Shown: positions 20,308-47,662 of the stretch, in pieces
Layout: each line of letters starts with the position of its first letter
How positions within the stretch are numbered: the stretch's first letter is position 1
Source: Hemileia vastatrix
Lineage: Eukaryota > Basidiomycota > Pucciniomycetes > Pucciniales > Zaghouaniaceae
DNA length: 64,000 nt
Assembly: GCA_030280995.1 (NCBI GenBank)
Contig: JASXTE010000007.1
Location: 14,632,501-14,696,500 of the forward strand
Direction: 5' to 3'
Program-made: the position numbers and the translations under genes
Notes under the pieces: generated by a model
Told to the model about the DNA's origin: nothing
Databases searched by the model: none
The model's input: only the letters and a program-made list of their open reading frames with translations

Positions 20308-23300
20308 TTAATCTGCTTCATGCCTAGTTCCTCTGGGATAAAACCTCTTCACTTGGTCTGCAGCCACCCTCTTTTTAAGACTGCACCATCCAACTCTTCC
20401 AAAACATAAGAACCTCCATACGCCTGAGATCTTACTCTGTAAGGTCCATTCCATCTGTCAGCAATCATTTTCCCCCACTGACTCTCCAAACTTCTATTAT
20501 AGACCAAAACCAAACAACCAGGTTTCAAGGGATTCCTGAGTCTATGAGCCAACTTCTTGTCCCAGTATCTGACTGATTGATTCCTAATCTTCATCATTCT
20601 AGAGTATGCCTTCTCTTGACATTCCTCTCTACATTCCAACTGTTGCATCCTGGCACAGAGCAAATCTTCTGTTGATTGCACGTCATTCTAATCAATTCCA
20701 AGATAAGAGACAGCTTCCAAGTCCACTGGTAGAACGGCTTTCTGACCAAACATTAACTCATAAGGAGAATAGGCAGTTGTCTTCTTCACAGTGACCCTAT
20801 CAGCAAATAAAACAAGGGTAAATAATGCCTCCACATTTCGGCACTATCTCCGCACATCTTCACCAAAGCATTCTTTATAACTTGATGGCCTCTTTCAACC
20901 ATGCCTTCAGCTTCAGGATAATAAGGTGTAGCCACTCTAACTTTAGAGCCAACACTTGCCACAGCTTCTTTAAATTCGGCACCAAACTCTGGCCTACCAT
21001 CAACAGTCACCAACTTCATCAACCCATACCTATAAATCCACTCTTTCTTCAAAAACTCTGCCACATTTTTGGCAGTCAAATTAACCAGAGACACTGCCTC
21101 AACCCAAACAGACAAATCATCCCTAGCAACAATCAAGTATTTATACCTGCCCTCTTTAATATGGACAGCATCAAGACTGACTCTTCCAAAAAAAGTTGAT
21201 TCACCAGTAGCACGGCCCATCTCTTTAGGTTTCAAGTGACTTCTTCTTTGACATTCTTCACAAGATTGAACCCAACCCTGCACAGCCAACTTCATACCCG
21301 GCCACCAAAATCTGTCTGCTACTCTTCTATAAGTCTCCCCAAAGCCTCTATGACCAAGGTCTTCATGCAAAGACATCAAAACCAATTCTTGATCCTTCTT
21401 CTGAGTCACCACCACTTGAGGATTAGGATGTCTCCTTCTCATCAAGCACCTTCCTGACACATAAAATCCAAGACTCTTCTTCTTGATTGCCAACCAAGTA
21501 TCATCATCACAACTATCTGGCCTCTCCAAGGTCAACAGATATTCCACCAAAATAAAATAAAACCCAGATTGACCCCAGGTCTCATCTTCAAAATCAAAAA
21601 AAACAACATCCAATGGTACAACTCTGTCATCAAAATCACCAGTGTGAACATGAGCCAATTAAGCAGCCCAACCAGGACACCAATCCTTAAATTTTGGCAC
21701 GTCCTTCTCTTTCCACTGAACCTTGTGAGAATCCAGTTCACTAACAAAAACACCCTTTTCCAATTTTGAGCTGTCCCAAATAACAACTCCATCTTCATCA
21801 ACAAAAAGATCCTGATCACCAGAATCAAGATCAGATCCAGCCAGTTTAGCCTCTTGGGGGAGGTCAGAAAAATCATCCAGTTTAGCGTCATGGGGGAGGA
21901 AAGGAAAATCCTCAGCACCCTTTGTGCTGGCCCTAATCACTGGAACATCTTTGTCAAACTCTTCAGAATCAGAATCCTCATCTGTAGGTGGCCTCCTTGA
22001 TAATCCATCAGGCATAGTAAAAGTTTTACTTGGTTTGCGTACCAGGTCAAAAGAAAAATGTTGAATAAATGCCACCCACCTAGTCATTGGAGCATTTGGA
22101 AGACTAGGTGTATTGATCATCTGAACCAAAGATTTTGCATCCACCTGCAGCTCAAAATGCTGCCCCCACCAAACCGTCTGTAGCTTCTTTAAAATTTTAG
22201 CTACGCCACACAATTCCAACTTAGGTTGAGAATACCTAGATTCCACCTCATTAAACACCACAGACTCATACCTTACTGGCCTGAACCTCCCAGTCTTATC
22301 TTCGTGAGACAAAACAGCACCAGCAGCAATATAACTTGAGTCCACTGCCAGATAAATCTTTCCAGCACCCACATCATAATCCAACTTGTGAAGAATTATA
22401 TCTTCACCAACAACCTTTTTCAGCTTCTGAAAAGACTCTTCACACTCTTCCGTCCATTCCCAATCTGCATCTTTTCTGGTCAACCTCCTTAAAGGTGAAG
22501 CCAACAAAGAAAAATCCTTAATGAAAATCCTGACATATACACATACACCCAAAAATCCTCTGACTTCAGTAGTATTTTTAGGCCTTGGCCATGCCTGAAT
22601 TTTATTAATCTTCTTCTTCGCCATAATCCTTCCCTCTTTACATACCACATGACCCAGAATTTCCAAAGCAGGAACACAACAACATAATTTTGACCCTGAA
22701 ATGGTCAAACCAGCCTCTTCAATCCTAAACAACACTCTCTCTAGAGTTATTGCATATTCCCACACAAACCTCCTTATTCCAGGGTTCTCTGATAACACCT
22801 CATTACCATAATCAGTGGATGGTCCTTTAATTCCACCATCATCAATGAAAATATCAGCATGAGTAGGAGCCTCATCCTGAAAAATCCAAGCCATCTGTGC
22901 TTGATAAACTGCCACTGAATTAGTTGCTCCTTGAGGCAACCTAGTGAGCTGAAATCTTCCCAAAGGAGTCTCAAAAGTTGTGAGAGGCCTTGAATCCGTA
23001 TGTAGTTCCCTCTCATCATAACCACCCATAATATCACCCAAACCATAACACACCCTTCCAGCAAAAGCTTCAACAAAATCCTCTGCACTTGGCGACATAC
23101 CAGCGTCCTTGTTAGTGACTCTATTAAAGGCTCTAAGATCATGAACCACCCTCAACTTTCCATTCTGCTTCTTTACACAGAACACCGGACTTGAGTAGCT
23201 GGACGTTGATTGTTCATATAACCCAGTCCTGACTCTTTCCCTAACAATCTCTACAAAATCCTCTCGAATTACAGCTGGAATCGGAATAGGTTTGATTTGC

Positions 23301-24538
23301 CAAGGCTCATGACTAACAACAGGAATCAAGTAAGGTTCCCAATAAGAGTGCTTCAATACACCCCTTTCCTCCTTAACAAATGCCACTGCTTTTTCCCTTA
23401 GCACAATAACGTGCAACAACAACTTCTTTTCTTCCTCAGAAAACCACCCATCAGGACCAAAATTAACAACTTTCAATCTTTCCACGGTCACCCTAGCCGT
23501 CTCTACAAATTCTGGAGGATTCTTCACCAAAGGAGTAAAGTACGGATCTCTTGAAAAAGGAGGTCTCTTCAAAGGCGGATTCAAACCCACAGAAATAGGC
23601 TCATTGACAGGCCTAATCTTCTGCGCTACCTTCTTATACTTTGCCGCTCCACCTTCAACTTGAGGGATCTTCAGGAAATCTTCACCACCAGACCTGGAAC
23701 AAAAACCAAGGGTTTCCCCATTGCTCACATGTGTGGCCAAGGTAATGTTTTTGAAAGGTGTAGAAGAAACCCTAGCGGAACACAATTGGGAGGACTTAAT
23801 TTTACACCCCAATATCACCAATCCAAAATGTTTCCGCAATTCCACATCTTCATCCTCACTTCCAACTTCCAAATCTTCAAATATTGATTCATCTTCTGAA
23901 TCACATATTCTAAAATTTTGCAGTTTATCCTCATGCTGGAGGCCCAAAAATTGATCTTGATGATCTTCTTTCTTCAAAATTTTCTGCAGTTTAACCTCAT
24001 GCTGGAGGCCCAAAAATAGATCTTGACGATCTTCACAAAATTTTTTTGCATCTTCTTTCTTCATTATCTTCAGATTTTTTTCTTGATTTTCTTGAATTAT
24101 CTTGAAATTTTTATCTTCTTTTCTTGAGTTTTCTTCTGTCCTACAAAAATAACCAGAGGTTTCCCCAATGCTCACAGGTGTGGCCCAGGTAATGTTTTTG
24201 AAAGGTGTAGAAGAAACCCTAGTGGTGCACAATTGGGAGGACTTACTTTAAGACCCCAATCTCACCTCCCCAAAACTTTTCCGCATATCTTTCAATAAAG
24301 ATATATAACCAATCTTCTTCTTTAAACTTGAATTAAAAATAATAATGAATCTTGAGTGAGAAAAGAGACTTGATAAAAAACTTGATGAATACTTTCAGAG
24401 AAGAGAAACATTAAAAAGAGAAAGTTGAAAATCCACTTGGTATATCTCCAAGGGAGCTGACCTACTACAACCTGGGATTTACCCATCTCAGGGAGAGGTT
24501 GTAGCACCAGGGTGATCAGCCCTCATTACTCGAAAAAA
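20308..24538 (-). pseudogene. pol: pol of element 2: RT, RNase H, integrase; nearly complete
   Basis: Begins at the slippery site (24538) in the -1 frame relative to gag. Order: a pre-RT region with the duplicated S-T-P-F-K-N-I-T peptide and L-Q-H-E-V/D-K-L repeats (24232-23700); RT (about 23500-22500) with LGDIMGGYDERELH, RLPQGATNS and FIDDGG; RNase H with AVDSS, KLELCG and VDAK (about 22350-22120); integrase zinc domain (LHEDLGHRG...CEECQ, about 21370-21240) and DDE core (DAVHI, TVDGRPEFG, EAEGMVERGH, about 21170-20890). The C-terminus has the RWNGPY motif (about 20440) and no chromodomain. The second DDE motif reads DGRPEF where other copies have DGGPEF. Defects: stop at 21659 (CAA to TAA), frameshift near 20808, stop near 20692 and a frameshift near 20385. 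An early stop also lies just after the frameshift site (TGA near 24490). Confidence 0.9.
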
Positions 24539-29499: not shown

Positions 29500-29940
29500 C
29501 AACCCTCAGTTTCAAGTCTTGGGGTACTAGCCTCATTTCATAGTCTTGGGGGACTCAAAAACCCTCAGTTTAAAGTGTTGGTGGACTCAAAAACCTAAAT
29601 CATAAACCCAGAACCAGAGATCAACCACATTAAGACACAGAGAAAAAACTAACATTCTGGGGTAATTGTGAATAGAGCTGCCAGCCCATCAATTACCCCC
29701 AAACTTGCCTTTGCTAAATTCGGAGGCTCCCCCTGTGGATACCCTCCACCAATCTTTCAAAACCAACTCCATCAACAACACACATTCCTCAGTTTATAGT
29801 CTTGGGGTACTAAACCAACAATGATCCTCAGTTTAAAGTCTTGGGGGACTATCCTTGAAACCATAAATTTTCAGTTTAAAGTCTTGATGGACTAAAAAAA
29901 ATTCCATTTTAGAGTCATAGAGGACTTCCAGAATCTTGCA
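29500..29940 (-). repeat. Hairpin-repeat stretch between antisense genes A and B, element 3
   Basis: Copies of the short dyad (on the plus strand CAGTTTAAAGTCTTGG..GGACT) near 29505, 29540, 29567, 29790, 29830, 29875 and 29910, and the long hairpin GGGGTAATTG/CAATTACCCC at 29659-29699. Confidence 0.78.
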
Positions 29941-31110: not shown

Positions 31111-32244
31111 TGTGGTAGCCTAAAGTTTAGTATGGCACCTAAGTACGTAAATGGAGTTATTACGGCGTGCAAGATTGGTGTTATTATTTTTTATAAAAGG
31201 GTTTTATTTAATTTATTTGAGTTTTAAATATGAAGAAATTGGTCAAGAGCGAATGCCTACAGGAAAACAATTTATTTTACGGAGAAAACTTATTTTTACG
31301 GTCTGAAGAATTTATAAGTATCAAGTTGAGTCACTCAAGAACCTTTGGAAATTTTCCCAGAATTTTTACTATTTTTCTTATATTTTTTAAATGAATTTTA
31401 AAGTTTTATAGAAATACTTACGTGTTTAGAAATTACTTAACTTTAATAAATTTTCACGGGGTGATTAGAGCTGCGCAGACTACAAAAATTAGTTTGGAAT
31501 TTAAAGGGGAAGTGGCTATATCATGTGTAATTTTTCTAGATTTTTTATTATAGTTTCAAAGGTTCTAATTGAGTCCGCTTGGACTCCGCTTGGACTCCGT
31601 ACGGACTCCGTACAGGCTCCGGATTGACTCCGTACGGACTCCGGACAGGCTCCGGATTGACTCTGGGTGAGCTCTGGAGGGGAAAACTTAGGCACGTGAC
31701 TAGGAATACTTAAGAGCCTCTCAAACTCAAAATTGAGGGGGGGGGATACATCATACAGCTTAATCTTTAACTAACACAGTCTCATTTTTAATTACTCAAC
31801 AAATTTAATAAATTTTAATACCCTTATAACTTTATATTTTATATATAACATTTTAGAAATACTACTCAACAATTTAAATCACTTCATACAGGGTATCTTT
31901 AGAAAGGTCTTCATCACTGGGACTTGATTATCGCTGTCTCATAAAAACTCAAATTATAAAAAAAACATAAAAGTCAATCTTTACAGATCTTTCACTGGTA
32001 CACCTTAATTGTTGTTATCAGTATTTCTTTTCTCAACAGCCACTTTTATTTAAATCTCAATAAGCGTTAATTATTTTTGAGTTTCATTATTTTTATCAAT
32101 CAGATCCAAGTAGACTGGTTAGCTTAGTGATTTAGAATTCCCATTTTGTTATTTTATTGGAAGGACGGGGTTTTCAGCTAAATCCACATATCTCCTCCGG
32201 ATTCTGCTTACAGCAAGGCGACTGTAAGAGTTTACCTTACCATA
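31111..32244 (+). repeat. 5' LTR of element P
   Basis: 1134 bp. A TATA box (TATAAAAGGG, 31192-31201) is followed by a transcript-start-like region. At 31568-31675 lies a cluster of short direct repeats of a GGACTCCG unit (CTTGGACTCCG, TACGGACTCCG, CAGGCTCCGG), one block longer than in the 3' LTR. Ends TACCATA next to the PBS. Confidence 0.9.
31192..31201 (+). promoter_or_regulatory. TATA box in the 5' LTR of element P
   Basis: TATAAAAGGG about 80 bp into the LTR; the same sequence is at 40689-40698 in the 3' LTR. A good match to a core promoter, so the transcript of P would start a short way downstream. Confidence 0.6.
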
Positions 32245-32246
32245 GT

Positions 32247-32263
32247 TGGCGCCCAACGTGGGG
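32247..32263 (+). other. Primer-binding site of element P
   Basis: TGGCGCCCAACGTGGGG, an exact complement of the last 17 bases of tRNA-Lys(CUU) including CCA. One mismatch later TCGAA also matches the T-arm. Two bases separate it from the LTR. Confidence 0.9.
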
Positions 32264-32417
32264 TTCGAAATCTCTAGCTTTTTCTAGGACTTACTTGGAT
32301 CTAGGACTTTCTTAGCCTGCAAGAGGCTTATTCTCTGGAACTCTAATTGGATTTTGTTATTGGCCTGCAAGAGGCTTGTTATTTTAACGGTTGTTAACGC
32401 TTTTCTTATGTTTTGGG

Positions 32418-33599
32418 ATGTCTTCTACTAGTGGAACTGATGTGTTGGCTGCTGGTGTACCTGTTAGGGCATCAGTAAGGATTGTATCTTGGGTTGGGCC
32501 CAATTTTTCTGGAGATGATTTAGAAGGATTTTTACATAGGTATGAAACTGCAGCTGCTATTGATGGTGCTTTACCTTTGGATATGGTGAAGCAGATTAGG
32601 TTCTTTATCTTGGACAGAGAGGTGGAAAAGGAGGTTATTTCTATGGATGGTTATAAAGATAAAGATTGGAGAAAGCTCAAGATGGAAATGGAAAAAAGGT
32701 GGCCAAAAGTTTATTCTTTGGAGGATCTAAGGGATATAGCTAGGAAATGGGAATCAAAAGGTGGTGTAACATCTCTGCATCAGTATCATCAGTTTATGGT
32801 TGAATTTCAGGTGGTTCTGGATTATTTGTTGGAGTATGAAATTTTATTTCATGATAATGCATCAAAGTATGTTTTTTGGGATGCTATGGGGGAAAAGGTT
32901 AAGAAAGATGTTTTGATGGTGCTTATTAATGCGAATTTAATGAAGGATTGCCCAGATGGAGAAACTAGGATTCCTGGTATGGAGGTGCTAAAGAAGGCTA
33001 TTTTAGAACATCTGGATACTCATAATTCTGTTGATTTGGACTCTGGAAAAGAGGTTTTTCTTGCTCAAGAGATAGAAGAGGGCGGTTTAGAAGAATTAGC
33101 TTCTGTTGAATTTTTGGAATCAGCCATTCCTGAAGATTTTGTCCAGCCTGAAGATATTATTTTTGTTAACAATTCTGTTGGGAAAGAAGAGATTTTTGAA
33201 GATGAAGATATTGTTGTCATTAATGACAAAATTTTGGATGATGGGGATAATTTTGTGTTGAATGATTCGAAATCGGATTTAGAGGATTTTTTGCCTCAGG
33301 TTTTTTCTTCAGAAGCAGAGACTGTCTGCAATGAAGATATGGATATGGTGGATTTGTTACAATCTCAGGGAGAGATTGTGAAGGAGGATATGGTTTTCCC
33401 TGCACTAATAAAGAGTGTGGTGGTATTTGATAATAGAGTGCATAAATTGGATGCACTCATATATTGGATAAGGGTTGTTTATTTTTTATCTCCAATGGTA
33501 GGACAAATTATGGGGGTTTATTTTTGGGTTTTATGGAATCGGTGGATAAGCCCTTGGGGCAAAATTATGGATTATCTCCAGGGGATATCAAGAATTTAA
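32418..33599 (+). CDS. gag: gag of element P, no CCHC knuckle, degenerate protease site
   Basis: Capsid-type polyprotein, 393 residues from MSSTSGTD (32418); an in-frame ATG 27 bases upstream is less similar to the MASG start of the other family. The N-terminal half aligns with gag of elements 1-4 (LEGFLHRYETAAAIDGALPLDMVKQI-like block, EKEVISMDGYKDKDW, EKRWPKVYSLEDL). The second half is very acidic (EDEDIVVIND, DDGDNFVLND). It has no C-x2-C-x4-H-x4-C knuckle. Where the other family has A-L-L-D-S-G, this protein reads A-L-I-Y-W-I (near 33450-33467) by eye, so no working protease is visible. The hairpin motif CCTC(cgaaat)GAGG lies directly after the stop. Confidence 0.8.
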   Translation: MSSTSGTDVLAAGVPVRASVRIVSWVGPNFSGDDLEGFLHRYETAAAIDGALPLDMVKQIRFFILDREVEKEVISMDGYKDKDWRKLKMEMEKRWPKVYSLEDLRDIARKWESKGGVTSLHQYHQFMVEFQVVLDYLLEYEILFHDNASKYVFWDAMGEKVKKDVLMVLINANLMKDCPDGETRIPGMEVLKKAILEHLDTHNSVDLDSGKEVFLAQEIEEGGLEELASVEFLESAIPEDFVQPEDIIFVNNSVGKEEIFEDEDIVVINDKILDDGDNFVLNDSKSDLEDFLPQVFSSEAETVCNEDMDMVDLLQSQGEIVKEDMVFPALIKSVVVFDNRVHKLDALIYWIRVVYFLSPMVGQIMGVYFWVLWNRWISPWGKIMDYLQGISRI

Positions 33600-33655
33600 T
33601 TCCTCCGAAATGAGGATAAACTACCTAAACTGGGCTGAAATTTTCTTTTATTTTT

Positions 33656-36600
33656 ATGTCTTCAATTTTTTCAGGATTCAAATTATTATGGATGCCCTCA
33701 TTTTTTGGGGTAGCTGGGGCTGATCACTCTAATGTTGTAATCTCTCCTCAGGATGAGATCCCGGATTGCAATAGGTCAGCTCACTTGGAGATAAATCAAG
33801 TGGATTCTCAATTTTTTTCTTTTAATATTAATTTGGAGTGCAAATACGTTTTGGACTTTTCTATATGTTTATTGGATTTACCCTGTTTTTCTATTAAATT
33901 TAAAAATGGTGAAAAAGGCAAAATGGGCCAAATTAGGTTGGATAAAAATTGGAAGGGTATGTTTTATGAACTCCAGCAAGAGGTTAAACTGCAATTATCT
34001 CCTTCTATTATGGACCTCCAGCAAGAGGGTAAACTGAAAAAATCACATCAAAATCCAATAAAAAATCTCAGTATAATTAAAACTCAAAAAAATAATTTTT
34101 GTGAAAATTCAATTCCGGACCTCCAGCAAGAGGATAAACTGCCAACTTTATTTATGGGTGATTTACTGTTGGATAAGGGAAGCAAAGGTGTTTGAAAATC
34201 TGTTTATAAATTAGACAAGGGAAAGGAAAAAAGGGTAAAATTTAAAAATGAAATAAAATATTTTTCTAATTTTTCTTATTCTGATTCTGATGATGAAGAA
34301 GATTCATTTGATGAAATTTTTAATGGCGATACAAAAGAAAATGTTTTACCTCAAGTTTATTTAGATGTGGACGCAGCCAAATATAAGAAAGTAGCAAATA
34401 AAGTTCGACCTATTAATGAACCGCTACCTGCCAAATTAAATTCACCCTTGAGAAGACCAAGGTTATCAAGAGATCCTTATGAAAGTCCCTTGGTAAAGAA
34501 TCCGCCTGAATTTTCTGAGACGTCAAGAATCACTTTTGAGAGACTGGATGTTGTTAATTTTGGACCTGATGGTTGGTTGTCTAGAGAAGAGAAGAAGTTG
34601 TTGTTGGATGTGATGGTCAAGCGAGAGAAGGCCATTGCTTTTGTAGAAGAGGAGAGGGGTGTGTTGAAGCATTCCTATGGGGAGCCTTACAAGATTCCTG
34701 TGGTATGTCATGAACCGTGGCAGCAGAAACCAATTCCTATTCTGGCTGCATTAAAAGAAGCCTATATTGAAGTTGTCAGAGAACGGATACGCACTGGACT
34801 GTATGAGCAATCAACGTCAAGTTATTCTAGTCCGGTATTTTGTATCAAGAAACCGAATGGAAAGCTTAGAGTTGTTCATGATCTTAGGGAATTAAATAGG
34901 GTTACAATAAAGGATGCTGGGATACCACCTAGTGCTGAGGAGTTTGTTGAAGCATTTGCAGGGAGAGTGTGTTATGGTTTGGGAGATATTATGGGTGGAT
35001 ATGATGAGAGAGAGTTACATCCGGACTCAAGGCCTCTCACTACATTCGATACGCCACTAGGACGTTTACAGTTAACAAGATTACCTCAAGGAGCAACAAA
35101 TTCGGTTGCAGTTTATCAAGCTCAGATGGCTTGGATCCTTCAAGACAAAATTCCACAATATGCTGGAATCTTTATAGATGATGGAGGAATTAAGGGACCA
35201 ACAACTGAATATGATAACCAGGTGTTGGAAGAGAATCGCGGGATACGCAAATTCATTTGGGAGTTTGCAATTACATTAGAAAGAATCTTGTTTCGAATTG
35301 AAGAGGCTGGTTTAACTATTTCAGGTTCAAAATTTTCATGTTGTGTGCCAGCCTTAGAAATATTAGGCCATGTGGTATGTAGAGAGGGTAGGATTATGTC
35401 CAAGAAGAAAGTTAACAAAATTCAGTCCTGGCCAAGACCCAAGAATATGACCAAAGTTAGAGGGTTTTTAGGCGTTTGCGTATATGTTAGAATTTCTATC
35501 AAGGACTTTTCTTCATTAGCAGCTCCATTGAGACGGTTAACGAGAAAGGATGCAGACTGGGAGTGGGATGAAGAGTGTGAGAAGGAGTTTGTGAAGTTGA
35601 AGGAGGTTGTAGGGAAGGATTTAGTCCTGCACAAGTTGGATTATGGAAAAGAAGCTGGCAGAATTTATTTAGCAGTTGATTCAAGTCAGGTTGCAGCTGG
35701 GGCGGTTTTGTCTCAGATGGATAAAGCTGGTTACATCAGGCCAGTTAGGTATGAATCTGTAGTATTTACTGAGGTCGAATCAAGATATTCTCAACCAAAA
35801 TTGGAATTATGTGGTGTGGCAAAAATACTGAAGAAACTTCAGCAAATTTTGTGGGGGCAACATTTTGAGTTGCAAGTGGATGCAAAATTGTTAATCCAGA
35901 TGATTAATTCCCCAAGTTTACCGAACGCACCCATGACGAGATGGGTAGCTTTTATTCAACATTTTTCGTTTGATTTAGTTCATAAGCCTGGCAAGACTTT
36001 TACTATGCCAGATGGTTTATCAAGGAGACCACCCACTGAAGAAGATTCAGACTCAGAAGAGTTCGACGAAGATATACCTATTATCAAAGCCAGCACTAAA
36101 GGAGCTGAAGACTTTCCATACCTCCCCCATGAGGTTAAACTGGCAGGACTATTGTGTTTAGATTATGGTGATGATGACCTCCACCAAGAGGATAAACTGG
36201 AAAATAGTTTTTATGTTAATAAAGGTGTTGGAAAAGGTGTAGATAAATTCGGTAGAAAGGAGGTAGAAGAAGATGTGGTGTATGTAGAGGAAGATGGATT
36301 GGTATTGTGGGATGGTAGTAAGTTAAGGAATGGTGTATATGTTGGAGAATTAGAGAATTTAAATAAAAAGGTGGATAAAGAGAAAGAGGTATTTTCGAAT
36401 ACGGTTTACAAAGGATCCAAAGGTTCAGAAGAAAAACGTCGACATAGCTCGATTAAAGATTTATTTAGGGGTCAACGATTATTGGCTCATTCATGTGCAG
36501 GTGATATTGGTGATAGAGAAGTCCCTATTGATGTTATATTAATCGATTTTCAAGATGAAGTCTGGGGTCAGACTGGTTTTTATTTTTCGTAAGTCAAATA

Positions 36601-37858
36601 TTTGTTGACTTTAGAGAGGCCAGAAGAGTGTGAAGACGATGAATGGGTCGCTATCAAGAGGAAGTCATCTACGTTTTACCTATCTGGTCGACGTTTAATG
36701 AGGAGGAGGTATCCAAATCCTCAAGTAGTTATAACTCAACAGAAGGGGCAAGAATTAGTTTTGAAATCACTGCATGAAGATCTCGGGCATAGAGGCGTTG
36801 GAGAAACGTTTAGAAGAATTTCTGATCGATTTTGGTGGCCTGGCATGAAGATGGCTGTTAAACATTGGGTTCAGTCATGCGAAGAATGTCAAAGACGAAG
36901 TTATTTAAGGCCAAAAAAACCTGGACGCGTGACCGGTGAATATACGCTCTTTGGGAGAGTTAGTTTAGATGCCATACATATAAAAGAGGGACGGTATAAA
37001 TATTTAATAGTGGCCAGAGATGATTTATCTGGTTGGGTAGAGGCAGCGCCTCTTATTAATTTAACTGCCAAAAATGTGGCAGAATTTTTTTTGAATAATT
37101 GGGTATATAGGTATGGGGTGATGAAGTTGGTAACGGTAGATGGAGGTCCTGAATTTGGGACAGAGTTTAAAGAGGCCATATTGAAATTTGGATCAAAGGT
37201 TAGGGTAGCAACCCCATATTATCCTGAAGCTGAAGGCATGGTTGAAAGAGGGCATCAAGTTATTAAGGATGCTTTAGTTAAAATGTGTGGGACAAGTGCC
37301 GAAAAGTGGAGGCACTATTTACCTTTAGTTTTATTTGCTGATAGAATAACTGCCAAAAGGACAACCGGATTTTCACCTTATGAACTTTTTTTTGGACAGA
37401 AAGCAGTTTTACCGGTTGATTTAGAAGCTGAATCATATCTTGGAGTTGACTAGGACATGGTCAAAACTACTGAAGAATTATTGTGTGCAAGAATGATGCA
37501 GCTAGAAAAGAAAGAAGAATATTTAGAAAAGACATATTCGTGGATGATGAAGATCAGAAATCAATCAGTTAGATATTGGGATGAGCAGTTGGCACATCGA
37601 TTAAGGAAACCTTTGAACCCAGGTGATATGGTCCTGGTGTATAATAGGAGTTTGAAAAGTCAGTGGGGAAAGATGTTTGCAGATAGGTGGAATGGACCGT
37701 ATAAAATCAAGGAGCAAGTTTCCGGCGGTTCATATGTGTTAGAAGAGTTGAATGGAGTAGTATTGAAGAAGAGGGTAGCGGCCGATCAAGTGAAAAGGTT
37801 CTATCCTAGAGGCACCAGGAGTGCCAAATTCTTCCTCCGCAATGAGGATAAACTATGA
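33656..37858 (+). pseudogene. pol: pol of element P: RT, RNase H, integrase with three nonsense codons
   Basis: A single frame, -1 relative to gag, interrupted by TGA at 34193, TAA at 36590 and TAG at 37451 (a conserved Trp codon in the other family). Order: pre-RT region with three L-Q-Q-E-x-K-L repeats (33960-34145); RT (34560-35500) with VHDLRELNRVT, LGDIMGGYDERELH, RLPQGATNS and FIDDGG; RNase H (35650-35890) with AVDSSQVAAG, KLELCG and VDAK; an acidic linker with two more L-H/P-x-E-x-K-L repeats (36121, 36177); integrase with LHEDLGHRG...CEECQRRS, DAIHI, TVDGGPEFG, EAEGMVERGH and RWNGPY. The catalytic residues are all present. The C-terminus FFLRNEDKL is itself encoded by a copy of the hairpin motif. 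A ...TTTTTTCAG acceptor-like sequence at 33665-33674 may mean splicing near the gag/pol junction. Confidence 0.88.
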
Positions 37859-38050
37859 CAATTATCAAATTTTATTAACCTCCGCAATGAGGATAAACTA
37901 TAATATCAAAGAACTTTTATGGCTTCCTCCGCAATGAGGATAAACTATAATATCAATGAAACTTTATGGATTTCTCCGCAATGAGGATAAAATATGATGT
38001 TTATAAAAACCTTATTGACCTCCGCAACGAGGATAAACTATCTTCTTTAT
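37840..38050 (+). repeat. CCTC/GAGG hairpin array at the end of pol, element P
   Basis: Five copies about 45 bp apart: CCTC(cgcaat)GAGG then ATAAACTAT, starting near 37841, 37882, 37926, 37973 (TCTC arm, G-U pair) and 38021 (loop cgcaac). The first overlaps the pol stop codon. The spacers between copies are similar to each other (ATATCAA-GAAACTTTATGG type). Confidence 0.88.
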
Positions 38051-38870
38051 ATCAAAATGCTTTACTGTCGTTACACTGCATATGGGCGATGAAACTATGA
38101 TGAAACTTAACAAAATTCAAGAAGACCTTCTTTGAAATTTTCAAAAACTTAAAATTCTTAAAATATGGGTGAAGATAGTGTTGGAAAATTTTAAAAATTT
38201 ATTGGAAGAAGTGTTCACAGGGGAAACTTCTTAATTTAAACATTGGCAAGTGTGGGGGTAATTGATGGGCTGGCTGCTCTATACACAATTACCCCATAAT
38301 GTTCGTTTCCAAAATTTTCCCTGTTTCTAGTTGAATCCTGGCTTTGTCTTTTAATTATAGGAAGTCCACTAAGACTATAAACTGGAACGAATCAAGAGAC
38401 ACCGCTCTCAACACCGGATTCAAGATTCTTTTTATTTTATTTTGCTTTTGATTTTTTTATGTTAGATTGTGATTTCTTTTCTTTAATATATATTATGAAT
38501 TATTGTAAAGGTTATGCTCACTGGTGGTCTCTAATCATTTTTATAAATTGGAGGGAGCCCACCCAGTGATCATCATTATAAAAATTATCTTCTAAAAACT
38601 TTCATTTATTTTCTTTTCTTTTCAATTTCTCAAAATTGTGTAACCACATCAAGTTGCACTTGGATGTGGGTATGATGTCGAGGGTACGGCTCATCAAATG
38701 GCCGGGGGGCATCTTTTAAAATTTTATTTTGAAATTTTTTTATTATTATTACTATTTTTATCTTTCTTTTCACATTCGTTTATCTTTCTTTAAAAATTAA
38801 ATTTTAACTTTTATTTCAAAACTATCTTTTCTAAAATCTTTTATTTTAGGTTAAAAACAAAATTAAAATT
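38051..38870 (+). ncRNA. Structured 3' region of element P, first part
   Basis: Noncoding. Contains the long hairpin GGGGTAATTG/CAATTACCCC (38255-38295), an AGTC(cactaa)GACT dyad (38362-38375), the hairpin around 38516-38573 (arms CACTGG/CCAGTG), and the CCACATC/GATGTGG hairpin (38645-38670) followed by GGCTCATCAAATGGCCGGGGGG-like sequence. Each has a counterpart in the 3' regions of elements 2-4 in the same element-sense orientation. Confidence 0.6.
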
Positions 38871-39055
38871 AAAAAAAATAAAATAAAATAAATAAATAAA
38901 TAAAAATATATAAAATATAATAAAAAAATAAAAATAATAATAAAATAAAAATAAAATAAAAAAATAAAATAAAAATAAAATAAAGAAAATAAAAATAAAA
39001 AATAAAAATAAAAAAAAATAATAAAAAAATAAAAAAATAAATTAATTAAATCAAA
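38866..39055. repeat. A-rich low-complexity tract of element P
   Basis: AAAATA/AATAAA-type repeats on the plus strand (element sense). It lies in the hairpin-rich 3' region, as do the T-runs of elements 2 and 3 and the (TTTTTA)n array of element 4 (also A-rich in element sense), though on the far side of the CCACATC and GATCACTGG hairpins. No gene. Confidence 0.75.
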
Positions 39056-39177
39056 ATTATTATTATATTTCTTAGTTTATTTTTCAGTCTTCATTCTTTT
39101 TAGTTTATTCATTTAGTTTAGACAGGAAACAGGGTCTAGGGGAACTCAATACCTATGGGATTTTACTTCAAGACATA

Positions 39178-39950
39178 TTTTAGTCCTCCAAGACTTTAAA
39201 CTGGCTACTGTTCAAGACATTCTTTAAGGTTTTTTACACGTATTTTGGATCTGTTAGTCCTCCAAGACTTTAAACTGGCTACTGTTCAAGACATTCTTTA
39301 AGTTTTTTTTTATACGAATTTTGGAGCTGTTAGTCCTCCAAGACTTTAAACTGGCTACTGTTCAAGACGTTCTTTAAGGTTTTTTATACATATTTTGGAT
39401 CTGTTAGTCCTCCAAGACTTTAAACTGGCTAATTTTCAAGACTGTCATTAAAGATTATATATTGGAGTTGTTAGGTCCACCAAGACCTTAAACTGGGCTG
39501 TTATCAAGCTGTTGGGTCCACCATGATTTTAAACTGCATTTCTCATCAATCAAATGTTTGGTCCACCATGACTTTAAACTGGTAGTTCATTCATTGTTTA
39601 GTCCACTATGACTTTAAACTGGAAAATTAATATCTGCAGGATAATTCAACATTCATTGGTCCACTATGGCCTTATACTGGATTACTTGTCAATCAAATGT
39701 TTGGTCCACTATGACATTAAACTGGATTATCAAATTTATTCAATCTTTGGTCAAGCCTAGGCCTTACTTAGTAATTTATCAAGTTATTTATGCACCTAAA
39801 CGATCTTTGGTCCACCAAGACCATAAACTGGCAATCGATTATATGTTTGGTCCACCAAGACTTTAAATTGGAATGTCAATCTTGTTTGGATAACTCAATT
39901 CAATCTTTTAATTTATCACTGTCCCCTAAGACTCTAAACTGGTTATTCAA
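39178..39950 (+). repeat. AGTC/GACT and GGTC/GACC hairpin array of element P
   Basis: About fifteen dyads. The first four form a 74-bp tandem array (AGTC(ctccaa)GACT then TTAAACTGG, near 39183, 39257, 39331, 39405). Then come variants with changed arms: GGTC(caccaa)GACC at 39474 and 39809, GGTC(caccat)GATT at 39517, AGTC(cactat)GACT at 39600, GGTC(cactat)GGCC at 39659. Most arm changes keep pairing, including G-U pairs; GGTC..GACA at 39703 does not. The tail NTAAACTGG is nearly constant. Confidence 0.88.
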
Positions 39951-40597
39951 TTATTTCTGGAATTGGGTGCTGATAAGCTTTAGGAGGTTAAAATTTTAGG
40001 TGGTGATGATGCTAAGGAAAGCATGATGGTTAATTAGGTGAAATTTGTGGCGCTTTAACATGGTCTAAGGTTAATATTATTATTGGAAGCCTGGAAAAAG
40101 TATTTTATGGGTTTGCTGTATAGCAAAGTTTGAAAATTGTGATGAAGGAATCAGAAGTTAGGATGGTAGTTGGATTTTAGGGAATGATTTTTTAGTGCCT
40201 CATTGTTAGGCCATTTTTGGTGTGAAGCTTGGAGGACCTTATGGAGAGATTTGAATCATAGAATTCGGCTCAGTGGGGGGCCCTATGAGGTTGGAATCAC
40301 AAGTATTCGGCTCATAGGAAGATCCACTCTCTCAATGCTGTGACAAGAAGGAAGACTGGTATATGGGAGTCTGAAGGGATTGAAACCTTGCTCTCAGTAG
40401 TGGAATCATCACAAGATTTATATTATTTTATTTTATGTTATATCAAGCCAGAGAAGAAGAAACAATGTTTTTATTATAAAGAATTAAAAGAAGACCAGCT
40501 AAAATAAATTTATCAAATTATTTTATTAGAAAAGATAATTCTTTTGGAATTGCTCAATCACTTATGCAAAGTTTTACAAATGGGGACATTCTCAATT
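39951..40597. other. Element P sequence between hairpin array and polypurine tract
   Basis: About 650 bp without an open frame of note. It contains two similar blocks (CGGCTCAGTGG near 40267 and CGGCTCATAGG near 40310). Nothing else recognised. Confidence 0.5.
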
Positions 40598-40607
40598 GGA
40601 GGGAGGA
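40598..40607 (+). other. Polypurine tract of element P
   Basis: GGAGGGAGGA immediately before the 3' LTR (TGTGGTA at 40608). The preceding TTCTCAATT is shared with elements 2 and 3. Confidence 0.88.
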
Positions 40608-41707
40608 TGTGGTAGCCTAAAGTTTAGTATGGCACCTAAGTACGTAAATGGAGTTATTACGGCGTGCAAGATTGGCGTTATTATTTTTTATAAAAGGGTT
40701 TTATTTAATTTATTTGAGTTTTAAATATGAAGAAATTGGTCAAGAGCGAATGCCTAGACGAAAACAATTTATTTAACGGAGAAAACTTATTTTTACGGTC
40801 TGAAGAATTTATAAGTATCAAGTCGAGTCACTCAAGAACCTTGGGAAATTTTCCCAGAATTTTTACTATTTTTCTTATATTTTTTAAATGAATTTTTAAG
40901 TTTTATAGAAATACTTACGTTTTTAGAAATTACTTAACTTTAATGAATTTTCACAGGGTGATTAGAGCTGCGCAGACTACGAAAATTAGTTTGGAATGTA
41001 AAGGGGAAGTGGCTCTATCACTTGTAATTTTTCTAGATTTTTTATTAAAGTTTTAAAGGTTCTAATTGAATCCGCTTGGACTCCGCTTGGACTCCGTACG
41101 GACTCCGTACGGGCTCCGGATTGACTCTGGGTGAGCTCTGGAGGGGAAAACTTAGGCACGTGACTAGGAATACTTAAGAGCCTCTCAAACTCGAAATTGA
41201 GGGGGGGGATACATCATACAGCTTAATCTTTAACCACCACAGTCTCATTTTTAATTACTCAACAAATTTAATAAATTTTAATACCCTTATAACTTTATAT
41301 TTTATATATAACATTTTAGAAATACTACTCAACAATTTAAATCACTTCATACAGGGTATCTTTAGAAAGGTCTTCATCACTGGGACTTGATTATCGCTGT
41401 CTCATAAAAACTCAAATTATAAAAAAAACATAAAAGTCAATCTTTACAGATCTTTCACTGGTACACCTTAATTGTTGTTATCAGTATTTCTTTTCTCAAC
41501 AGCCACTTTTATTTAAATCTCAATAAGTGTTAATTATTTTATAGTTTCATTATTTTTTTCAATCAGATCCAAGTAGACTGGTTAGCTTAGTGATTTAGAA
41601 TTCCCATTTTGTTATTATATTGGAAGGACGGGGTTTTCAGCTAAATCCACATATCTCCTCCAGATTCTGCTTACAGCAAGGCGACTGTAAGAGTTTACCT
41701 TACCATA
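40608..41707 (+). repeat. 3' LTR of element P
   Basis: 1100 bp, TGTGGTA to TACCATA. Same as 31111-32244 except for a few substitutions and the absence of one block of about 33 bp in the GGACTCCG repeat cluster. Followed by CCGG (41708-41711) and the rest of element 3. Confidence 0.92.
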
Positions 41708-42229: not shown

Positions 42230-43467
42230 GCTTCTGCAAAAACAATTAGAAACATAATAATAAAATAACACAACAAAATAATTTCAGAGATTTTTTTTTT
42301 TTTTTTTTACAGATTGAATTCTACTAAACTACTAATCATAAGAAAATTTGAAAATAAAATGTAAATGGACTAAATAGAATAATATGAAATAAATAATTAT
42401 ATAAAACAAATTGGTATCCCCCAGCCAATTGATGAGCTGATCCCCTGATACCTTACCCACATCCAAGTGCACCTTGATGTGGATACACAATAAAATATTT
42501 TAAATGATTAACAATAAAAAATTCAGAAATTAAAGAAGATAATAAAAGTAATGAAACACAGAATTAAATGAAATAAAAAAAAAGAAAATAGCATTGCCCA
42601 GCCAATTGATGAGCCTTTCCCCACCATTTCTTGCCCACATCCAGGTGACCCTGATGTGGTAACACCCTATATTTTGATTTTATAATTTTAAACACCCCCA
42701 TAAAAAAAATAAAAGAAAAAAAGAGAAAAAAGAAAATAATCTAAAACCACTATCTAGCAAAAACATAACTACAAAATAAAAGACTGTCCAGCTCCATAGA
42801 TGGTCCAGCAAGAGAATATCCTGTCCATAGAAATGATCACTGGGTGGGCTCGCTCCAATAAGTAAAAATGATGGGAGACCACTAGTGATCCACCGCCAAT
42901 CCAAAAGAACTGAAGATATAGAAGCCAGTCCCAAACCAGCTTAAAGTCATAGTGGACTTATACCTGAATAATTAACAACAGAACTAGAATTCAACTAGGA
43001 AAACAAAACACATGAGACAGACATTCTGGGGTAACTGTTATACAGAGCAGCCAGCTCATCAGTTACCCCCACACTTGCCACAAAAAAATCTTGAAGCCCC
43101 CCCTGGGTACCTTCAAACCAGCAAAACACAACATCCAACACAATAAACCAAAACCAATAAAAGTGAAGATTCCGGCACAAGAAAACCAAAGGAATTTCCA
43201 GTTTAAAGTTATAGAGGACTAAAACCTGTGAAAAGAAACCAATACTAGTGTTAAACCAAATTAAGAGAAGGGGTTGGAAACAGACAATCTGGGGTAACTG
43301 TTGATAGAGCAGCCAGCCCATCAGTCACCCCCACACTTGCCAAGGCTAAATCTAGAGGCCCCACACATGGGTACTTTCTAACAAAAGTTTCCAACAAACA
43401 GATGCATAGCATCACCACAAAAAAACCAAAATTAAAGAATGGTCCGTAGTTTATCCTCATTGCGGAG
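42230..43467 (-). ncRNA. Structured 3' noncoding region of element 3
   Basis: No gene. Same order as element 2: T-run (42290-42308), CCACATC/GATGTGG hairpins (42459-42484, 42633-42657), GATCACTGG hairpin (42836-42891), short dyads (42938-42960, 43198-43221), GGGGTAACTG hairpins (43028-43069, 43291-43331; the second pairs through a G-U in GGGGTGACTG), and the CTC(cgcaat)GAGG dyad at 43449-43468. Confidence 0.6.
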
Positions 43468-46400
43468 TCAATCTTCTCCATGTCTAGTGCCTCTGGGATA
43501 GAATCTCTTCACCTGGTCTGCAGCCACTCTCTTTTTCAAGACTGCACCATCCAACTCCTCCAAAACATAAGAACCTCCAGACGCATGAGATCTGACTCTG
43601 TAAGGTCCATTCCATCTTTCAGCAAACACTTTTCCCCACTGACTCTCCAAACTTCTATTATACACCAAAACCAAATAACCAGGTTTCAAGGGATTTCTGA
43701 GTCTATGAGCCAGCTTCTTTTCCCAGTACCTGACTGATTGATTCCTAATTTTCATCATTCTAGAGTATGCCCTCTCTTGACATTCCTCTTTACATTCCAA
43801 CTGTTGCATCCTGACGCAGAGCAAATCTTCTGTTGAGTGCACGTCATCCCAATCAATTCCAAGATAAGAGACAGCTTTCAAGTCCACCGGTAGAACAGCT
43901 TTCTGACCAAACATTAACTTGTAAGGAGAATAGCCAGTTGTCCTCTTCACAGTGACCCTATCAGCAAATAACACCAAGGGTAAATAATGCCTCCACTTTT
44001 CAGCGCTATTCCCACACATCTTTACCAAAGAATTCTTGATAACTTGATGGCCTCTTTCAACCATGCCTTCAGCTTCAGGATAATAAGGTGTAGCCACTCA
44101 AACTTTAGAACCAACACTAGCCACAGCTTCTTTAAAGTCAGCACCAAACTCTGGCCCACCATCAACAGTAACCAACTTCATCAACCCATACCTATAAATC
44201 CACTCATTCTTCAAAAACTCTGCCACATTCTTGGCGGTCAAATTAACCAGAGACACTGCCTCAACCCAACCAGACAAATCATCCCTGGCAACAATTAAGT
44301 ATTTATACCTGCCCTCTTTAATATGTACAGCATCCAGACTGACTCTTCCAAAAACAGTTGTTTCCCCAGTAGCACGGCCAACCTCTTTAGGTTTCAAGTG
44401 ACTTCTCCTTTGACATTCTTCACAAGATTGAACCCAACCCTGCACCGCAAACTTCATACCTGGCCACCAAAATCTGTCAGCTACTCTTCTATAAGTCTCC
44501 CCAAAGCCTCTATGACCAAGGTCTTCATGAAAAGACTTCAACACAACTTCTTGACCCTTCTTTTGAGTCACCACTACTTGAGGATTAGGATGTCTTCTCC
44601 TCATCAGCCTTCTTCCTGGCACATAGAATCCAGGACTCTTCTTCTTGATTGCCAACCAAGTATCATCATCACAAATATCTGGCCTCTCAAAGGTCAACAG
44701 ATATTCCACCATAATGAAATAAAACCCAGACTGACCCCAGGTCTCATCTTCAAAATACAACAAAACAACATCCAAGGGTACAACTCTGTCATCAAAATCA
44801 CCCGTGTGGACATGAGCCAATTGGCCAGCCCAACCAGGACACCAATCCATAAATTTTGGCACATCCTTCTCTTTCCATTGAATCTTATGAGAATCCAGTT
44901 CACTAACAAAAACACCCTTCTCCAATTTTGAGCCATCCCAAACAACAACTCCATCCTCATCAACAAAAACATTCTGATCACCAGAATCAAAATCAGATCC
45001 AGCCAGTTTACCCTCTTGGGGGAGGTCAGAACAATCATCCAGTTTAGCCTCATGGGGGAGGTGAGAAAAATCTTCAGCACTCTTTGTGATGGACCTAGCC
45101 ACTGGAACACCTTCATCAAACTCTTCAGAATCAGAATCCTCATCTGTAGGTGGCCTCCTCAATAATCCATCAGGCATCGTAAAAGTTTTGCCCAGTTTGT
45201 GTACCAGGTCAAAAGAAAAATGCTGAATAAATGCCACCCACCTAGTCATCGGCGCATTTGGAAGACTAGGTGTATTTATCATCTGAACCAAAGATTATGC
45301 ATCCACCTGCAGCTCAAAATGCTGCCCCCACAAAACCATCTGTAGCTTCTTCAAAATTTTTGCTACACCACACAACTCCAACTTAGGCTGAGAATACCTA
45401 GATTCCACCTCATTAAACACCACAGACTCATACCTTATTGGTGTGACCCTCCCAGTCTTATCTTCGTGAGACAAAAAAGCACCAGAAGCAATATAGCTTG
45501 AGTCCACTTCCAGATAAATTTTTTCAGCATCAACACCATAATCCAACTTGTGGAGAATAATATCTTCCCCAACCACCTTCTTCAACTTCTGAAAAGCATC
45601 TTCACACTCTTCAGTCTATTCCCAGTGTGCATCTTTCCTGGTCATCCTTCTTAAAGGTGAAGCCAACAAAGAAAAATCCTTAATGAAAATCCTAACATAA
45701 ACACACACACCCAAAAATCCCCTGACTTCAGTGGTATTTTTAGGCCTTGGCCATGCCTGAATTTTATTAATCTTCTTCTTCGCCATAATCCTTCCCTCTT
45801 TACATACCACATGACCCAGAATTTCCAAAGCAGGAACACAACAACAGATTTTTGACCCTGAAATGGTCAAACCAGCCTCTTCAATCCTAAACAACACTCT
45901 CTCTAGAGTTATTGCATATTCCCAGACAAACCTCCTTATACCTGGGTTCTCAGCTAACACCTCATTATTATAATCAGTGGATGGTCCTTTAATTCAACCA
46001 TCATCAATGAAAATATCAGCATGAGTAGGGGCCTCATCCTGCAAAATCCAAGCCATTTGTGCTTGATAAACTGCCACTGAATTGGTTGCTCCTTGAGGCA
46101 ATCTAGTGAGCTGCAATCTTCCCAAAGGAGTCTCAAAAGTTGTGAGAGGCCTTGAATCCGTGTGAAGTTCCCTCTCATCATAAACACCCTTAATATCACC
46201 TAAACCATAACACACCCTTCCAGCAAAAGCTTCAACAAAGTCCTCTGCACTCAGTGGCATACCAGCGTCCTTAATAGTGACTCTATTCAAGGCTCTAAGA
46301 TAATGGACCACCCGCAATTTTCAATTCTGCTTCTTTACGCAGAGAACCGGACTTGAGTAACTTGAAGTCGATTGTTCATATAACCTGGTCCTGATTCTTT

Positions 46401-47662
46401 CCCTAACAATCTCTACAAAATCCTCTCTGATAGCAACTTTAATCGGAATAGGTTTGATTTTCCAAGGTTCATGACAAACCACAGGAATCAAGTATGTTTC
46501 CCCATAAGAGTGCTTCAACACACCCCTTTCCTCTTCAACAAATGCCACAGCTTTCTCCCTCAGCACAATAACGTGCAAAAACAACTTCTTTTCTGCTTCT
46601 GACAACCACCCATCAGGACCAAAATTAACAACCTTCAACCTCTCCGCAGTCACTCTAGCCGTCTCTACAAATTTGGGAGGATTCTTCACCAAAGGAGTAC
46701 AGTACGGATCTCTTGACAAAGGCGGGTTCAAACCCACAGGCATAGGCTCATTGACAGGCCTAATCTTCTGCACCACCTTCAACTTGAGGGATCTTCAGGA
46801 CATCTTCACCACCAGACCTGGAACAAAAACCAAGGGTTTCCCCATTGCTCACATGTGTGGCCAAGGTAATGTTTTTGAAAGGTGTAGAAGAAACCCTAGC
46901 AGTGCACAATTGGGAGAACTTACTTTGAGACCCAAACATCACCACTCCACAACTTTTCCGCAATCCCAAATCTTCATCTCCACTTCCATCTTCTAAATCT
47001 TCAAATCTTGATTCATCGCCAGAATCTACTCTTCTTGAATATTGCAGTTTATCCTCTTGCTGGAGGCCCAAAAATAGATCTTGATGATCTTCGTTCTTCA
47101 ATATCTTCTGCAGTTTAACCTCATGCTGGAGGCCCAAAAATAGATCTTGATGATCTTCACAAAAATATTTTGAATCTTCTTTCTCCATTATCTTCAGATT
47201 TGTTTCTTGATTTTCTTGAATTATTTTGAAATTTTTATCTTCTTTTCTTGAGTTTTCTTCTGACCTACAAAAATAACCAGGGGTTTCCCCAATGCTCACA
47301 GGTGTGGCCCAGGTAATGTTTTTGAAAGGTGTAGAAGAAACCCTAGCGGTGCACAATTGGGAGGACTTACTTTTAGACCTCAATCTCACCCCCCCAAAAC
47401 TTTTCCGCATATCTTTCAATAAAGATATATAACCAATCTTCTTTTTAAAACTTGAATTAAAAATAATTAAAAATCATGAGAGAGAACAGAGACTTGATAA
47501 AAAATTTGATGAATAATTGCAGAGAAGAGAAACATTAAAAAGAGAAAGTTGAAAATCCACTTGGTATATCTCCAAGGGAGCTGACCTACTACAACCTGGG
47601 ATTTCCTCACCTTGGGGAGAGGTTGTAGCACATGGGTGATCAGCCCTCATCACTCTAAAAAA
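43468..47662 (-). pseudogene. pol: pol of element 3, nonsense codons and a deletion
   Basis: The pre-RT part (47419-46760) holds the duplicated S-T-P-F-K-N-I-T unit and L-Q-H/Q-E-x-K-L repeats. A small deletion near 46780 shifts into the main frame, which then runs 46782-43468 with nonsense codons at 46321, 45994, 45616, 45295 and 44098. RT keeps LGDI, but the next residues are altered (KGVYDE for MGGYDE), and FIDDG is followed by a stop. RNase H (VDSS, KLELCG, VDA), integrase HHCC (LGHRG...CEECQ), DDE (DAVHI, TVDGGPEFG, EAEGMVERGH) and RWNGPY are readable. The natural end at 43468 gives RFYPRGTRHGED, so this copy preserves the family's true integrase C-terminus. Confidence 0.9.

Follow-up and report, generated by a model that had tools for sequence, protein, structure and literature searches.

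Repeated units of about 23 nt in Ty3/Gypsy retrotransposons of Hemileia vastatrix as candidate coremin-like, Xrn1-blocking RNAs

The stretch of DNA analysed here, referred to as the window, comprises 64,000 nucleotides (positions 14,632,501 to 14,696,500) of contig JASXTE010000007.1 of Hemileia vastatrix, whose genome assembly (GCA_030280995.1) contains 748 Mb in 791 contigs. It is largely composed of two families of Ty3/Gypsy long terminal repeat (LTR) retrotransposons, E1 and family A; LTR pairs and domains of reverse transcriptase (RT), RNase H and integrase are all present. Among the best 120 of 506 matches to its pol open reading frame (ORF), the top-ranked named relatives are those of rust fungi (Puccinia striiformis, Austropuccinia psidii). 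Both families carry many copies of a unit of about 23 nt, which consists of a 4-bp stem, a 6-nt loop and, after one arbitrary base (N), a tail beginning with UAAAC. Judged from its sequence, it is somewhat probable that arrays of this unit are coremin-like RNAs that block the 5'-3' exonuclease Xrn1.

E1 occupies positions 31111..41707 on the plus strand and lies, with LTRs of its own (31111-32244 and 40608-41707; 94.6% identity), inside an older family A element. Polypurine and primer-binding-site-like stretches can be read at the LTR edges. We take E1 to be the element called P, with unrelated LTRs, in an earlier description of this DNA (the original prediction); the other carriers we would assign to a single family. 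A gag-like ORF of 402 aa (32391..33599), called by position, gave no match to a Pfam domain. It is followed by a pol ORF with RT and RNase H domains (34367..36592) and by an integrase ORF with H2C2 and rve domains (36602..37453), which is terminated in this copy by an in-frame TAG. The array of units is located in the untranslated region (UTR) between pol and the 3' LTR (40608..41707).

Two classes of units were distinguished, the TA class with tail UAY and the TG class with tail UGN. The first unit of E1 (33602..33624; TA class, CGAAAT/UAAACUAC) starts 3 nt past the end of the gag-like ORF. Three TG-class units precede the RT ORF (33970, 34015 and 34120; 33970..34142), two of them with nonstandard pairs: the outer stem pair of 33970 is A with G and the loop-tail pair of 34015 is G with A. 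Two more TG-class units (36121 and 36178; 36121..36200) lie in frame in the spacer between RNase H and integrase. Next comes a group of five TA-class units (37834, 37879, 37926, 37973 and 38019; 37834..38041), of which 37973 has one mismatch. Their loops are CGCAAT or CGCAAC and their tails end in TAT; unit 37834 overlaps the end of pol. In the 3' UTR, a TG-class unit with AGTC/GACT arms (38363..38385) is followed by four TG-class units within a 74-nt tandem repeat (39182, 39256, 39332 and 39406; 39182..39428) and by nine more (39474, 39515, 39560, 39600, 39658, 39703, 39809, 39849 and 39920; 39474..39942). The arms of the latter are AGTC/GACT, GGTC/GACC and G-U forms; outer pairs are broken in 39703 and 39920, and 39658 and 39849 deviate from the skeleton at two positions and one position, respectively. 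The interval 37840..39950, to which the original prediction referred, contains 16 exact, two one-mismatch and two two-mismatch sites; 19 units were counted there, and the two-mismatch site 39443 was taken as a decayed unit or a chance match.

Family A, with LTRs of about 1.1 kb, is mostly found on the minus strand. Its first copy (1399..3475, minus; positions are minus-strand 5' ends) carries two units in the spacer between RNase H and integrase (1421 and 1457) and one in the spacer between protease and RT (3475). A distal 3' UTR array in a plus-strand fragment (8778..9266) consists of ten units, including three one-mismatch forms. On the minus strand, distal 3' UTR arrays are located at 16883..17383, at 55228..55657 and, in the element interrupted by E1, at 29565..29926 (exact and one-mismatch sites; two-mismatch sites at 29528 and 29555). 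In the proximal 3' UTR (19778..20308, minus), two units belong to the TG class (19800 and 20061) and one to the TA class (20308); the latter is at the end of pol and has A with G as outer pair. Units 21863, 21899, 23942 and 24008 (21841..24008, minus) lie in frame in the coding spacers of an 857-aa ORF. The interrupted copy continues with units 42958, 43220, 43468, 45025, 45061, 47066 and 47132 (42936..47132, minus), and a further group comprises units 59757, 60012, 60262 (TA class), 60442 and 60508 (59735..60508, minus). Joined together, the pieces suggest a family A 3' UTR of about 4 kb that holds proximal units and distal arrays alike. One family A 3' UTR region contains a near-perfect (TTTATT)n array of 1.76 kb (57381-59139), and within the family A LTRs (14607-15474 and other LTR copies) there are tandem repeats of 42 nt and a direct duplication of 435 nt. 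A scan of the window against Rfam at the gathering score matched no family, and a scan for tRNA and tmRNA genes found none.

Units were counted with a skeleton in which TC, A5 (loop base 5), GA and TAAACT were fixed and the pairs to be tested were left free. The window contains 59 exact sites, compared with 0 in the reversed window; with one mismatch the numbers are 18 and 6, and with two mismatches 27 and 35, so that this last class is at background level. The dispersed unit claimed in the original prediction is thus real, and the arm variants listed there are present, including GGTC/GATT (39515) and AGTT/GACT (8949). All four stem pairs are formed in 50 of the 59 exact units (the inner two pairs are part of the skeleton). 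If the hairpin is searched together with the tail TAAACTG, all four pairs are found at 48 of 65 exact tail sites, G-U being counted as a pair. The tail had been described as fixed; its last base, however, is G, A, C or T, and one class has TAY instead of TGN. With element borders as drawn here, every one of the 59 exact units runs in the sense direction of its own element. Units follow the gag-like ORF, occupy the spacers between protease and RT and between RNase H and integrase, mark the end of pol and form rows in the 3' UTR; the location of some units inside the pol coding spacers goes beyond the original prediction. The unit is abundant elsewhere as well. When 20 stretches of 10 kb, evenly spaced along the same contig, were sampled, eight contained exact copies (52 in total, at most 25 in one stretch), and one 17-base piece of the unit is present 12,595 times in the 748-Mb genome, compared with 0 times when reversed. 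By itself, copy number is no proof, as tandem arrays multiply through duplication.

The sequence of the unit can be read as a small pseudoknot of the H type, in which the last bases of the tail pair with the hairpin loop. Loop bases 3-5 are able to pair with the tail bases after UAAAC, a pairing that the original prediction missed. Minimal H-type pseudoknots such as the frameshift signals of poleroviruses have a short stem, a first loop of 2 nt, a second stem of 3 bp and an A-rich last loop; the units share this layout, but their 3' UTR arrays are noncoding. The coupling of loop and tail was determined in 108 distinct contexts from the window and the 20 evenly spaced stretches. The tail is UGN in 93 of these, and the variable last base goes with loop base 3: the two are paired in 80 of the 93 contexts (C-G 52, U-A 14, G-C 14). 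In eight more, C is opposite A, and here GG comes next in all eight cases, compared with 1 of 14 U-A units; the GG would allow pairing past a bulge. Loop-tail pairing leaves five UGN contexts unexplained. In all 15 contexts with a UAN tail, loop base 2 is G and base 4 is A. When all fungal loci except those selected for A-U were considered, 186 of 205 contexts were paired, 13 of 13 C-A cases had GG and the rule for the TA class held in 40 of 41; this larger set was partly fetched around the C-G form (loci L005-L012 and L033-L042), which are excluded from the set of 108.

Covariation was assessed for two stem pairs (a1-b4 and a2-b3) and two loop-tail pairs (l3-X and l4-G). In 500 column shuffles, which ignore relatedness, neither the observed fraction of paired cells (92.2% versus 74.6%) nor the covariation value (0.386 versus 0.132) was ever reached, and three of five measures exceeded all shuffles. 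Structures slid along the alignment were paired in at most 38.0% of the cells, with a covariation of at most 0.205. Relatedness was taken into account by means of a custom tree-based null model, which resembles R-scape but is not R-scape. Within the window, the individual pairs were equalled in 2-5 of 400 simulations. For the 108 distinct 25-mers, from which the loci chosen for A-U pairs were omitted, the family-wise counts per 1000 were 35 for a2-b3, 94 for l3-X, 222 for a1-b4 and 620 for l4-G; only a2-b3 survives. The pairing observed for the four pairs jointly was reached in 2 of 1000 simulations. The original prediction was to be given up if no significant covariation outlasted the correction for kinship; a2-b3 and the joint test do outlast it, the window alone does not.

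Substitution rates are clearer evidence for selection than the covariation tests, with a gap for E1. Five sets of homologous copies were compared, and only pairing positions outside the search skeleton were scored. The change per site is 0.079 (77/976) at pairing positions, 0.212 (103/485) at free positions and 0.180 in the surroundings. The difference between pairing and free positions gives a Fisher p of 1.6e-12, or 5.8e-7 with halved counts; the cells are non-independent, as copy pairs were read in both directions. The contrast is strong in the four sets from family A, where the values for pairing, free and outside positions are 0.112/0.314/0.219, 0/0.054/0.148, 0.056/0.246/0.167 and 0.083/0.292/0.152; in the second set the free positions are slow as well. 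Changes in stem pairs keep the pairing in 17 cases and break it in seven, and for loop-tail pairs the numbers are 13 and three. Among 3313 pairs of homologous units, l3-X is the most frequent co-change of 66 column pairs (61 versus 5.2 expected), with a1-b4 in third and a2-b3 in fourth place. An A-U pair between loop and tail occurs in 11 units genome-wide, which were selected for having A and T and of which L051 and L052 share flanks. Ten of the 11 have a C-G or G-C homologue within up to six best matches, and in six this is the top match. These data support a constraint that follows the folded single strand. The selection on folded RNA that had been proposed originally thus agrees with the constraint along the fold and the uniform sense orientation; the tree-corrected covariation is moderate.

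The fold has a counterpart among RNA viruses. Coremin is a viral RNA motif that stalls Xrn1 and is found in RNA viruses of plants and fungi (PMC10520033). Its consensus is a 4-bp hairpin with loop YGAD or YGNNAD, a spacer UUAAACUAC and a small hairpin, hp2 (PMC10520033). According to that paper, hexaloops CGCAAU and CGAAAU resist yeast Xrn1 in vitro, loops CAGAAA, CAAGAA and CCGAAA fail in the virus context, CGAAAC fails too, mutation of the UAAACUAC spacer abolishes resistance and hp2 is "absolutely required"; a structure had not been solved as of 2023 (PMC10520033). In the window, the canonical consensus TCYGNNADGANNNTAAACTAY (final Y) matches seven sites, which fit the coremin loop rule, compared with 0 in 100 shuffles. 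The likeness to the coremin or xrRNA-C (Xrn1-resistant RNA, xrRNA) of beny-, cucumo-, umbra-, enamo-, hypo- and chrysoviruses (PMC10520033, PMC5869530) extends to the 4-bp hairpin with UC/GA beside the loop, to the hexaloops CGCAAU and CGAAAU, to the spacer N-UAAACUAC, to constant inner UC/GA and variable outer pairs (the inner pairs being within our search skeleton) and to placement, which includes 3' UTRs, the vicinity of stop codons and coding sequence, at times in repeats. The spacer is UAAACUAC in units 20308, 33602, 43468 and 60262, UAAACUAU in four exact E1 units and UAAACUGN in the TG class; the base preceding UAAAC is not invariably U. The units differ from coremin in that their host is an LTR retrotransposon, that up to 25 exact copies occur per 10-kb stretch, that hp2 is inconsistent and that most of them use an N3-Y4-A5/UGN code, which the coremin sections of the cited papers do not describe. 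The tetraloop form of coremin gave 0 matches in the 748-Mb genome. PMC10520033 and PMC5760640 also name xrRNAs of flaviviruses and of tombus/poleroviruses, which resemble the units in the proposed function, in possible serial arrangement in 3' UTRs and in offering the 5'-3' exonuclease a pseudoknot first. They are described as larger, ring-forming folds; the window has no match to an Rfam family at the gathering score, in a library not checked for which xrRNA families it includes.

Relative to the coremin loop rule, the TG class displays a coupled shift: base 2 is freed, base 4 is a pyrimidine and UAY has become UGN. We read this as a second loop-tail lock, in which N3-Y4-A5 would pair with U-G-N and a third Watson-Crick pair would replace the base-2 rule. 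Because most of its members depart from the loop rule and hp2 is inconsistent, the TG class was classed as coremin-like and was not filed as coremin.

A number of results weigh against interpreting the units as Xrn1-blocking RNAs. The TG class, with 93 of 108 contexts, breaks the YGNNAD rule, and G is absent from loop base 2 in 88 of these 93. Five canonical units of E1 end in U rather than C, and the loop of 38019 ends in C like that of the failing CGAAAC. An hp2-like hairpin below -2 kcal/mol follows 30% of 76 units versus 21% of shuffles (p 0.045); it is present after 20308 and 43468 and absent after 33602, 37834 and 60262. Two of the five shuffle measures are not above the shuffles (both-side changes 3 versus 3.7; further pair types 9 versus 10.1), and within the window no pair survives the null distribution of the maximum over all columns (best 30 of 400). 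In the E1 3' UTR the contrast in rates is weak (pairing/free/outside 0.079/0.107/0.106). A cruder count for the distal array of E1 gave 0.169 inside versus 0.195 outside, and was superseded because its unit definition favoured conservation. Among the co-changes of the 3313 unit pairs, the non-pair a2-l3 ranks second. After collapsing to 273 pairs, the ranks fall to third for l3-X and eighth for a2-b3, a1-b4 is no longer among the top 14, and pairing on both sides is seen in only 7 of the 20 double changes between loop and tail. In the whole genome, the 11 A-U units are greatly exceeded by single changes, with 241 cases of A with G and 372 of C with T, and no excess of double changes is claimed.

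The proposed mechanism is as follows. In the transcript of the element, the 4-bp hairpin would form and the tail past UAAAC would fold back onto the 3' part of the loop, which would give a compact pseudoknot; in the TA class (loop YGNNA, tail UAY) this would take the form of the published Xrn1-stalling hexaloops. Xrn1 acting on decapped retrotransposon RNA would then halt just before a unit. Units along the element, from the end of the gag-like ORF through the pol spacers and the end of pol to the rows in the 3' UTR, would generate a ladder of stable 3' fragments. Such fragments may keep template or RNA-binding sequences intact or may, like their viral counterparts, sequester Xrn1 and keep RNA silencing occupied. 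The resemblance to the viral knot suggests that retrotransposons protect their own RNA likewise, and would agree with RNA stability, one of the functions named in the original prediction. Coremin RNA represses Xrn1 in vitro (PMC5869530). In yeast, assembly of Ty3 RNA depends on P-body factors including Xrn1 (PMC4589538), which makes it plausible that an element would be tuned to Xrn1. What the sequences show is a constraint that tracks the fold, the orientation and placement of the units and their agreement with the coremin consensus; that the units fold in the cell, stall Xrn1 and benefit the element is inferred.

The pseudoknots might instead be bound by Gag or a host protein as dispersed packaging or localisation signals, an option already raised in the original prediction; the many copies would increase avidity when particles assemble. 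Sense-strand copies across gag-pol and the 3' UTR in two families with unrelated LTRs would be expected in this case, related structured RNAs could equally bind Gag, and the need of Ty3 assembly for Xrn1 and other P-body factors could link binding to decay (PMC4589538). We nevertheless regard this as rather unlikely, as the agreement with the coremin consensus (loop bases, UAAACUAY) would not be expected from it: that consensus was established from the stalling of Xrn1, in viruses without a retrotransposon Gag. Control of translation, by units that stall scanning or terminating ribosomes or stimulate gag-pol recoding, has canonical units directly past the gag-like ORF (33599/33602) and at the end of pol in its favour; moreover, coremin blocks scanning ribosomes in vitro (PMC10520033). 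However, most units stand in 3' UTR arrays far from recognised starts and stops, and the in-frame TG-class units in pol would merely hinder translation, which makes this explanation very improbable.

Two further explanations dispense with a folded RNA. The coding units within 33970-37856 of E1 and 21841-24008 of family A encode a peptide L-x-[QHN]-[ED]-x-K-L. Of seven E1 units checked, six (33970 to 37834, but not 33602) use one reading frame, as do four in the family A ORF. That selection acts on this peptide and not on the RNA is nonetheless scarcely credible: most units are noncoding, the spacing in the plus-strand array is 28 to 40 nt as well as 33, slow and fast positions track pairing in noncoding family A arrays too, and the peptide is in none of the best 120 of 506 homologues, whose alignments to E1 mostly stop before the RNase H-integrase spacer. 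The repeat might also act as DNA, either by binding insulator-like proteins or as a functionless product of tandem-repeat spread. The Drosophila gypsy insulator likewise consists of many copies of a short motif in the UTR of a Ty3/Gypsy element, where double-stranded sites are bound by protein; in contrast to the units, these sites have no paired arms. Arrays do spread by duplication, as the four units in the 74-nt tandem repeat illustrate, and at non-skeleton positions the units of the E1 3' UTR change at a rate not clearly below that of the adjacent sequence. On the other side, the 23-nt unit is common to different families in coding and noncoding settings, free positions of family A drift while pairing positions do not, and the coupling of loop and tail has no meaning in duplex DNA. 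The DNA dyad that the original prediction had offered as a second option leaves this coupling unexplained, and a DNA-level role is improbable.

Sequences of the same form were found in viral contigs and bacterial genomes. In viral contigs, the canonical hexaloop with a GTC/GAC stem gave 40 matches (rough chance estimate about 2). The stem-swapped GAC/GTC pattern, intended as a negative control, gave 19; this may mean that the stem is free to vary as long as it pairs, or that something else makes loop and tail common. Other patterns gave 1 (GGC/GCC), 0 (changed tail) and 1 (tetraloop) matches, and the TG class had 0 matches in the sequence collections searched, viral contigs included. Pair a1-b4, which is outside the pattern, is standard in 31 of 34 GTC/GAC and 16 of 19 GAC/GTC contexts; in the latter its forms are U-G, U-A, C-G, A-U and once G-C. 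A pattern with T at a1 matched eight sites in bacterial genomes, every one with a title that we take to denote Bacillota; one tail protein was seen. Coremin-consensus hairpins with an outer stem pair whose two sides vary together thus occur in phage-like contigs and Bacillota genomes (L054-L102 and L103-L121). Most avoid long ORFs, and many precede a gene by a short distance: with ORFs called mechanically and some contexts near-identical, no ORF of at least 100 aa spans the unit at 45 of 49 sites, and at 28 an ORF starts no more than 100 nt downstream. Among ten downstream proteins, there were matches to head scaffolding (four), major tail (one), single-strand DNA binding (one), DNA binding (one) and a family of unknown function (one), and two had no match. 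In one of 14 loci scanned (L075:478-563), a canonical unit stands directly upstream of a match to the Rfam GP20-b RNA. An hp2 is not consistent in phage and bacterial contexts (29% versus 17%, p 0.18). The CCTC/GAGG form gave four matches in viral contigs, a number at the level of a rough chance estimate (about 5), and these were set aside. Two contigs (L001:4007-4029, L004:4011-4033) have a CCTC/GAGG unit with TAAACTGA near the 3' end; L001 is levivirus-like by its ORFs, and its unit lies directly past the last ORF.

Bacillota use the 5'-3' exonuclease RNase J1. A flaviviral xrRNA can block this enzyme (PMC5760640); the best 10 of 12 literature matches contained no phage xrRNA acting on it. 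A wider reading can be formulated tentatively: retrotransposons would possess a lock of their own, independent of hp2 and based on the variable third loop-tail pair, and would deploy it in rows that occupy Xrn1 and blunt silencing, while the same fold in mRNA leaders of Bacillota phages would act against RNase J, so that one knot would serve RNA viruses, phages and retrotransposons. We consider this doubtful. It is weakened by the 19 stem-swapped matches and by a Lactobacillus phage LR1 record that is related to one match region and lacks the unit in the stretch examined.

The original prediction knew of no comparable retrotransposon motif; what it missed is that the fold had already been described in RNA viruses, as the Xrn1-resistant coremin. 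Among the matches listed from open-licence literature, the longer lists being represented by the best 30 of 140, 25 of 50 and 10 of 5,317 entries, there was no xrRNA or coremin in a retrotransposon or other genome-resident element. The entries were papers on viruses, reviews and papers on prime editing, besides hits to an unrelated database name, and the xrRNAs in the papers cited here are viral. The phage matches would extend the fold to bacteria. If the interpretation as Xrn1-blocking RNAs is true, the 748-Mb genome, with its 12,595 copies of one 17-base piece of the unit, contains a large natural library of variants. As the sequence itself reveals the loop-tail pairing, such a library could contribute to clarifying the mechanism of coremin, and the units would provide a way for retrotransposons to escape 5'-3' decay.

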